A program made the translations under genes and the position numbers. Shown here piece by piece: positions 9,502 through 10,569 of a stretch of DNA of 64,000 nucleotides. The notes under the pieces are model-generated. The model had not been told where the DNA came from. It saw nothing but the letters and a program-made list of their open reading frames with translations, and did not search any database. The stretch's first letter is position 1. Each line of letters starts with the position of its first letter. The stretch lies in contig CAMPDV010000427.1 of NCBI GenBank assembly GCA_946699065.1, forward strand, positions 186,001-250,000, read 5' to 3'. Source of the stretch: Loxodes magnus. Its lineage: Eukaryota > Ciliophora > Karyorelictea > Loxodida > Loxodidae.

Positions 9502-10569
9502 ATGGAGAACAAAGAAATACAATTTACTAAAACTATTTTTTTAAGAAAACTCTTAAGACAACGAAATCATTCCCTTGGAAGAATATCGTTTCTTGTTTTT
9601 AAATATGAAATACTGCCTAACTTATGTTTCTAAAATCTTGTAAAAAGGATCAACTATGACTAGTCTCAAGGTAATTATTCTTTGATAATTTTAGATTAAG
9701 TTTTGAAAGGACATACTAGTTTTATTTTCTGGGTAGCAATAACTAGTGACTAGAAATGAATTGTATCGGGAAGTTACGATTCGACGATCAAGATCTGGGA
9801 TTTCCAGACTGGTACCCTCCTAAGAACTTTGACTGGACTCTCCTATCATGTTAGCTCTGTAGTCATAACAAGTAACTAGTAATGAATTGTATCGGGAAGT
9901 TACGATACAACGATCAAGATCTGGGATTTCCAGACTGGTACCCTCCTAAGAACTTTGAAGGGGCATATTCATTACGTTTGATCGTTAGCAATAACAAATG
10001 ACTAGAAATGAATTGTATCAGGAAGTTTCGATAATACTATAAAGATCTGGGATTTCCAGACTGGTAATCTCCTAAAAACTTTGACTGGGCATTCAAATAC
10101 AGTTTGATCGGTAGTATTATCAAGTGACCAGAAATGAATTGTATCGGGAAGTAACGATACAACGATAAAGATCTGGTCTTTCTCAACTGGTTAGCTTATT
10201 CGAACTCTTTCTGGGCATTCAAACTTAGTTATTTCGGTAATTTTGTCTTTGGATAATAAGTATATAATATCAGGTTCTGCAGATAATTCAATTAAGATAT
10301 GGGATTTCTCTACTGGTTAGTTAGTTCGTACTCTCCAAGGTCATGCAAAGTCTGTACGTAGTATTCAGCTCAGTACTGATTCAAGTGTTATATTTTCTGG
10401 TTCTGATGACAGTACAATCAAGATATGGAACTTTAATACGGGTGAGTGTATTAAAACTCTTTAAGGACGTACAAATAGAATATGGTCTTTAACATTGAGT
10501 AGTGACAATAGATGGCTAGTATTAGGAGCGGATGAAAATACTATTAGGAAGTGGAGAATTGCAAAATGA
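9502..10569 (+). CDS. WD40-repeat protein, right paralog (complete)
   Basis: ATG 9502, intron 9671-9694, stop TGA 10567-10569: 348 codons, 347 residues. The N-terminal block ([10 protein letters not shown]..., [15 protein letters not shown]) matches the left paralog and is followed by seven WD40 repeats, with GH, V.S, IVSGS and IKIWDF signatures. In repeats 1-4 the Trp of DQKWIVSGS is TGA; in the last repeat the same position is TGG (SSDNRWLV). Likewise VWS is TGA in two repeats and IWS is TGG in the last. TAG and TAA stand for Gln (TGQLVRTL, LQG) beside CAA in an equivalent place. The gene ends with TGA, with another in-frame TGA two codons on. The product is a beta-propeller scaffold of unknown partner. 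Confidence 0.93.
9671..9694 (+). other. 24-nt intron in right WD40 gene
   Basis: Begins GTAATTATTC, ends AATTTTAG. Removal joins ...YDQSQ to DQVLKGHT in frame, at the same phase as the 21-nt intron of the left paralog. It contains an in-frame-looking TGA and TAA, and lies between well-matched coding sequence. Confidence 0.88.

Follow-up and report, generated by a model that had tools for sequence, protein, structure and literature searches.

Can one codon stand both for an amino acid and for the end of translation within a single gene? The question is raised by a gene in a 64,000-nucleotide, AT-rich stretch (hereafter, the window) of contig C427 of the Loxodes magnus genome assembly, which comprises 705,730,643 bases in 7843 contigs. 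With TGA read as Trp and both TAA and TAG read as Gln, the forward strand from position 9502 to 10569 translates into a single protein of 355 residues followed by a terminal TGA (Table 1). Trp is written as TGA at six internal sites (residues 86, 128, 160, 170, 202, and 212) and as TGG at ten, and Gln is written with 4 TAA, 6 TAG, 4 CAA, and 5 CAG codons. The corresponding table is NCBI genetic code 27, the karyorelict nuclear code, for which Seah et al. 2022 is reportedly the reference.

A preliminary description, made from the letters of this DNA, had taken the gene to encode seven WD40 repeats and to use TGA with two meanings. Pfam indeed located seven WD40 stretches in the product (233.6 bits), and the codons were as described. 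The Trp of the KWIVSGS motif is TGA in four repeats (KW/QW-IVSG) and TGG in the last (RWLVLG, residue 338), VWS carries TGA at residues 160 and 202 while IWS carries TGG at residue 328, the Gln of TGQLVRTL (residue 273) is TAG, and the terminal codon is TGA. The reported alternation of TAA and CAA before GH stood in part: it holds for the first member, and in the second member the TAA at residue 321 precedes GR. AlphaFold2 predicts a propeller for residue 61 onward, with strands over residues 61 to 354; 253 of the 355 residues reach a pLDDT of at least 90 (with an input alignment of two sequences), and residues 1 to 58 stay below 50. Together with the Pfam stretches, this predicted fold indicates that the product is probably a seven-bladed WD40 protein.

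How much can the repeated TGA codons of one gene tell us about the code? A 252-nucleotide unit occurs four times at a spacing of 126 nucleotides, with 63 to 80% identity to the first unit. Because these 126-bp repeats resemble each other, the four KW TGA codons should not be counted as separate, independent events. Repetition within a single gene is thus the weaker evidence, and the independent weight has to come from paralogues and from unrelated genes.

Table 1. Features of the window at and around the WD40 gene (positions are those of the window)
Feature	Position	Strand	Remarks
Second family member, CDS start ~838, running off the left edge (C427:185780-186838)	1..838	-	5 internal TGA
Upstream segment, 75-78% conserved with distant paralogues	9136..9501	+	probable promoter and 5' UTR
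Seven-repeat WD40 protein CDS, intronless, 355 aa	9502..10569	+	TGA read as W and TAA/TAG as Q under the karyorelict code; closes at TGA
N-terminal module ahead of the first blade (residues 1-63)	9502..9690	+	family-conserved, omega 0.28; no Pfam match
Ten TAA/TAG = Gln	9631..10464	+	codon starts 9631, 9661, 9697, 9751, 9877, 9880, 10003, 10192, 10318, 10462
Span with four variable top-face codons per blade	9721..10539	+	first set 9721, 9727, 9775, 9781; repeats every 126 bp
TGA = Trp86 (KWIVSGS, blade 1)	9757..9759	+	paralogue column 58 TGA/4 TGG of 66
TGA = Trp128	9883..9885	+	paralogue column 18 TGA/1 TGG, 44 Tyr (66 paralogues)
TGA = Trp160 (VWS; variable top-face position R1)	9979..9981	+	paralogue column 9 TGA/0 TGG
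TGA = Trp170	10009..10011	+	paralogue column 16 TGA/0 TGG, 46 Tyr
TGA = Trp202 (VWS; variable top-face position R1)	10105..10107	+	paralogue column 10 TGA/1 TGG
TGA = Trp212	10135..10137	+	paralogue column 19 TGA/0 TGG, 44 Tyr
Terminal TGA (stop)	10567..10569	+	TGA here in 66/66 distinct paralogues
Post-stop stretch, 47 bp, 81%, common to divergent copy L031	10573..10619	+	about the Loxodes 3' UTR length given in passages of PMC11441545

A protein search of the genome returned 116 rows, which correspond to at least 114 loci on 82 contigs. DNA was taken for 74 of these loci, best-scoring first and with two gaps of 20, and therefore the sample leans to intact genes; it yielded 72 full-length copies for counting, 66 of them distinct. 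Left out of the copy counts were L079 and L083, which are split between frames, and L039, an additional stretch that duplicates L014 and contains a broken copy absent from the 116 rows. This broken copy lies on C427 at about 182133 to 183099, where it extends over two frames and adjoins an intact copy. Since the copies are related, the cells of the codon-column counts that follow are not independent.

Among the 66 distinct paralogues, the hallmark WD Trp at column 141 is written by 45 TGA and 21 TGG, and the one at column 267 by 3 TGA and 63 TGG, with no other codon at either. The remaining WD Trp columns hold 44 TGA and 20 TGG (column 183), 11 and 50 (column 99), 7 and 58 (column 225), and 16 and 49 (column 309), such that each of the six has 0 to 5 other codons. 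Every distinct copy contains at least one internal TGA, and at least 242 of the 334 internal TGA codons in these 66 copies stand in columns that also hold TGG. When single-base changes touching TGA were inferred on a tree of the copies, 49 of 100 led to or from TGG.

Could TGA specify another residue instead, either Tyr or, as in Euplotes, Cys? When residues were placed at the TGA sites of the gene, the Pfam WD40 profile gave 236.2 bits for Tyr, 233.7 for Trp, and 220.4 for Cys, a lead of 2.5 bits for Tyr over Trp, and several TGA columns (128, 170, and 212) hold mostly Tyr in the paralogues. This scoring, run with ten residues, does not separate Trp from Tyr and was therefore not used as proof. 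Against both residues, TGA interchanges with TGG, stands at the hallmark WD Trp, and also occupies the Trp of an aminotransferase motif (below); against Cys in particular, only 3 of the 100 inferred changes connect TGA with a Cys codon. We regard a meaning other than Trp as scarcely credible.

Genes outside the family bear on the same point. In a kynurenine aminotransferase-like gene, the TGA at residue 109 falls on the Trp of TGWK-x-GW, a motif common to the solved KAT structures. A second aligned TGA in that gene (residue 158) faces Ser, and the aligned TGA of a Pelota gene faces Asn or Phe; across these two genes from outside the family, as aligned to solved structures, one TGA in three therefore stands at the Trp of its relatives. 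The Pelota gene, L087, with the aminotransferase adjoining it, had been a candidate for eRF1 and was rejected as such; eRF1 is encoded by L095. Read together, the columns, the inferred changes, and the aminotransferase motif indicate that TGA encodes Trp inside genes, with two of the three aligned non-family TGA facing other residues. For TAA and TAG, the commonest single-base partners inferred on the tree were CAA (34 of 117) and CAG (25 of 62), respectively. In the eRF1 gene, whose frame closes at TGA, the Gln of the GGQ motif, to our knowledge universal in eRF1, is written TAA. These data indicate that both codons encode Gln.

A different possibility is that the gene is a pseudogene or decayed copy and that its in-frame TGA codons are real stops. 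The family is large and includes three frame-broken or split relatives (L039, L079, and L083). The frame at 9502 to 10569 is nevertheless open for 355 codons, internal TGA occurs in each distinct copy and mostly where TGG occurs too, and purifying selection is evident outside four variable positions in each repeat (omega, 0.43), and more so in the N-terminal module (0.28). On this evidence, decay is a highly improbable explanation.

We consider it very probable that the locus is a nuclear gene of code 27 in which UGA is read as Trp, most likely by a tRNA-Trp with a 4-bp anticodon stem, UAA and UAG are read as Gln, an altered eRF1 would release at a UGA near the 3' end, and the protein belongs to a diversifying WD40 family. 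This code reading is already known. Passages of PMC11441545, which describe the macronuclear assembly of L. magnus (706 Mbp), assign it NCBI table 27 with UGA as Trp or stop, and they report UAR as Gln, depletion of UGA before the stop, and AT-rich sequence after it; measured against these passages, the locus shows no difference in code. The preliminary description had likewise seen a context-dependent code and proposed a karyorelict or heterotrich source. Column 141, where TGA and TGG are the sole codons (66 of 66), and the terminal TGA of the family (72 of 72) support the karyorelict reading.

Which tRNA would read the internal UGA? The preliminary description had expected a tRNA-Trp with a UCA anticodon. 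None was found: a pattern search of the genome gave 14 matches versus 26 in its control; one match that was read is a tRNA, and some others have TCA at the anticodon place and look like chance. Relatives of tRNA-Trp are concentrated on contig C148, where 34 of 40 scored rows lie between 155434 and 165068, with 33 of them spaced 241 to 242 nucleotides apart in a tandem array. The two array members that were read (L093 and L094) have the anticodon CCA and a stem of UUCGA and UCGAC in which the top pair, U-C, is broken, and hence the anticodon stem has 4 bp. Contig C110 carries tRNA-Trp(CCA) forms with the full 5-bp stem (L084, L088, and L090).

Passages of PMC13092985 and PMC12005148 describe tRNA-Trp(CCA) with a 4-bp stem in Blastocrithidia, Condylostoma, Loxodes, and Amoebophrya and link the shortened stem to the reading of UGA. 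The C148 form shares with the tRNAs in those passages the CCA anticodon, the unpaired top of the stem, and the U opposite C; here it was observed in tandem, in an array with at least 33 rows, and 5-bp forms occur as well. Internal UGA would most likely be decoded as Trp by this multicopy tRNA-Trp(CCA) with four pairs in its anticodon stem. All eight tRNA loci read have the anticodon CCA except two on C110, L091 (C110:473884; CCU) and L092 (C110:361701; CAU). These are 86% and 85% like tRNA-Trp, ARAGORN calls them Arg(CCU) and Met(CAU), and they are possibly anticodon shifts or tRNA relics. As for a possible tRNA-Gln, for which anticodons UUA and CUA had both been anticipated, a tRNA-like string whose anticodon would be CUA accounts for 30 of the 39 matches listed to a pattern with 95 matches in all (67 in the control), and the partial tRNA survey resolved no tRNA with UUA.

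The release factor is also changed, at positions involved in recognition. Aligned to solved eRF1 chains and given in human numbering, the L. magnus eRF1 (L095) has E55A, T58R, and S60Q ahead of NIKS, S70A, and Y125F, and it keeps GTS, NIKS, and C127. Position 125 is Tyr in the 4crn row, and the human chain shown has Phe; we take residue 125 of human eRF1 to be Tyr. This altered eRF1 probably no longer terminates at UAA or UAG and would respond to UGA solely where that codon lies close to the 3' end. At position 70, Blastocrithidia has a change from Ser to Gly, as given in passages of PMC12153298. According to passages of PMC4967479, single eRF1 changes do not track the code, and therefore we treat those in L095 as supporting and not as proof.

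Is TGA the only codon that ends genes here? All 72 full-length family copies end in TGA, as does the eRF1 gene. When the alpha-tubulin gene L085 is translated with table 6, where TGA is the one stop available, its frame ends at a TGA that follows the acidic tail. These genes suggest that TGA is the sole stop. A code of the Condylostoma type (NCBI table 28), in which TAA, TAG, and TGA are each sense within genes and each able to terminate them, has the same sense meanings, and passages of PMC4967479 report that Condylostoma also ends genes with UAA and UAG. No such end occurs in the 72 copies, and the eRF1 gene agrees with them; with one family and few other genes to go by, we hold a table 28 code to be very unlikely. 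The same passages describe much in Condylostoma magnum and Parduczia that matches the present case: there is no dedicated stop, the place near the 3' end decides, and tRNA-Trp(UCA) was not found. Tubulin-like loci are themselves very numerous, with at least 150 matches, and several of them form arrays; of the 150, the 30 best matches have no TGA, and most others have one to three.

If code 27 applies, what separates a terminal TGA from an internal one? The same Trp recurs once per blade, and codon choice can therefore be compared at one structural position over varying distances from the stop. In blades 1 to 6, the WD Trp is TGA in 126 of 387 cases (126 TGA and 261 TGG), compared to 0 of 65 in blade 7, which lies five codons before the stop. 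The tree yielded 29 changes from TGG to TGA in the six WD columns and none in the seventh, and over the 66 copies the nearest internal TGA to the stop is 18 codons away. The share of A-ending codons among the other codons is 0.42 in the last 10 codons and between 0.49 and 0.77 in the preceding blocks, and so part of the preference for TGG near the stop may be compositional. With this caveat, TGA is depleted just upstream of the stop, in agreement with the depletion over about 20 codons given for L. magnus in passages of PMC11441545. A comparison at a single structural position was not encountered in the published passages on the L. magnus code and is added here. Codes that lack a dedicated stop are documented, this one among them, and the locus contributes a natural experiment.

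We considered and rejected a termination signal in the immediately adjacent nucleotides, such as a G at +4. G follows 58 of 66 terminal TGA codons and also 43 of 334 internal ones, and for 39 of the 66 copies the terminal 7-mer (-1 to +6) is likewise present around an internal TGA that is read as sense; this short context therefore cannot decide termination. The preliminary description had called for cues beyond the codon. In the 40 nucleotides that follow, mean AT content is 0.80 after terminal TGA and 0.64 after internal TGA, with overlapping distributions. Since the codon and its near neighbors are insufficient, position and AT-rich surroundings could decide, and position near the 3' end is the cue proposed for Condylostoma and Parduczia in passages of PMC4967479. 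A short, AT-rich 3' UTR together with poly(A)-binding protein would favor release near the 3' end. From the literature we infer that the C148-type tRNA may read UGA, that the eRF1 changes may matter for release, and that proximity to poly(A) may trigger it.

In our view the gene family matters more than the code. How did it arise? Upstream of the start, the last 360 to 400 bp of the gene at 9502 to 10569 are 75 to 78% alike in distant members; another member is 73 to 77% alike over about 410 bp, and L012 is about 71% alike over 900 bp. Because some 360 to 420 bp of upstream sequence are conserved, an origin by retrocopying is disfavored, and the family was probably duplicated as DNA with the upstream segment included. 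Downstream, near-identical copies aside, the similarity of the gene is limited to 47 bp in common with one copy; certain other pairs have longer stretches in common. Pfam reported nothing for the first 70 residues at E values up to 10, the rest being WD40. The N-terminal module has at least 150 matches in the genome; 99 of the 150 listed fall outside the list of WD40 loci, and 71 of these 99 end before residue 65. The module may therefore also stand at the front of other proteins, or of copies that have diverged further.

Where do the copies differ? When changes are pooled over the 42-residue repeat, with the WD Trp numbered 0, nonsynonymous change peaks at 16, 17, 19, 35, and 37. Positions 17, 19, and 35 correspond to R1-2, R1, and D-1, which passages of PMC3419727 name as known hot spots of the WD40 top face. 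Moreover, a conserved Val lies between 17 and 19 and a conserved Asp between 35 and 37, an arrangement like that at codons 7/9 and 25/27 of the Podospora repeats in passages of PMC1805685 and PMC2873952, with a spacing of 18 in both. The AlphaFold2 model puts 17 in the loop that leads into strand a, 19 where that strand starts, and 35 and 37 in the b-c turn. The effective numbers of residues at 17, 19, 35, and 37 are 8.8, 6.9, 8.9, and 5.1, or ranks 2, 3, 1, and 5 of 42, and 301 repeats from 43 representatives contain 285 different four-residue combinations. Trp at these four positions is written as UGA in 66 of 117 cases. Within a gene, blades 1 to 4 are more alike than at different places across genes; the effect is slight for blade 5 and absent for blade 6.

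Selection was measured on disjoint pairs chosen by identity band (24, 17, 15, or 19 pairs), with the neutral spectrum for omega taken from flanking DNA. The test reported here uses the four positions that match the Podospora codons; as these were looked up after 16, 17, 19, 35, and 37 had been picked from the data, the choice was not entirely blind. Among 19 disjoint pairs with 85 to 95% identity, omega was 1.53 at the four positions (bootstrap, 1.28 to 1.83) and 0.43 at the other 38, and 15 of the 19 pairs exceeded their own neutral ratio at the four positions. A plain model with a kappa of 2 gave 1.82, and synonymous change was also 1.66 times higher at these positions. These values suggest that four top-face codons in each repeat are under diversifying selection. 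In the closest pairs the signal weakens or disappears: omega was 1.29 and not significant (P = 0.27) in 17 pairs of at least 90% identity, and 15 pairs of at least 95% identity had two synonymous and two nonsynonymous changes at the four positions, with an omega of 0.26 and no signal.

Could such variability be ordinary surface drift in a relaxed family, with no selection for variety in binding? The values from the closest pairs are as drift would have them, and phases 6, 8, and 31 also reach a raw omega above 1 on few changes. Against drift stands the excess of omega over neutrality at positions taken from another organism, next to 0.43 elsewhere in the same 19 pairs; moreover, three of the four positions are the three most varied of the 42. 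We consider drift a rather unlikely, though still serious, account. The family looks like a diversified binding repertoire, in which the shared N terminus might couple to a common partner while the varying top face binds many targets. Recognition is the best fit, with drift and other kinds of binding, such as that of substrate receptors, as alternatives. Our tentative proposal, for which the chances seem to us a little short of even, is that more than 100 stand-alone WD40 propellers, with top faces diversified at the positions of fungal allorecognition, with no NLR core, and written in part with UGA, form a convergent recognition system (for self/nonself, mating, prey, or parasite). Should selection for varied binding underlie the four-position diversity, ciliates would have a recognition repertoire comparable in design to the fungal allorecognition genes, and the binding partners of the WD40 family would become searchable.

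A close parallel is with het-d and het-e of Podospora (HNWD), for which passages of PMC1805685 and PMC2873952 describe highly alike WD40 repeats, diversifying selection at the corresponding four positions, and repeats that are more alike within genes. In contrast to the HNWD genes of those passages (10 loci), the Loxodes family has at least 114 loci, seven repeats, a short N-terminal module, no HET or NACHT domain seen, and homogenization that is clear only among blades 1 to 4. Pfam placed no NACHT domain, as found in fungal NWD/HNWD NLR proteins, in the product of the gene at 9502 to 10569, and a NACHT search of the genome gave 31 weak matches (best E value, 6.7e-7). Among ciliates, passages of PMC6564038 describe species-specific WD40, LRR, and TPR genes in Tetrahymena; WD40 genes are among the fast-turning genes there as they are here, but those passages describe no four-position pattern for them. 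The main text of PMC11441545 has no occurrence of "WD40," and in the literature searched, that outside subscription papers and supplements, we found no published report of a family with the four-position pattern.

Other repeated sequences were also observed. A minisatellite at positions 60735 to 61993 of the window has units of 69, 138, and 207 bp and lies mostly inside a long TGA-free frame (60804 to 63998) that has no Pfam match. The window also contains a reverse transcriptase domain (RVT_1; 28246 to 28911, forward strand; E = 1e-24), probably from a LINE-like element, and passages of PMC11441545 report many LINE reverse transcriptases in the L. magnus genome. Elsewhere in the assembly, a 5S rRNA array occupies C136:177-10193 in units of about 225 bp.
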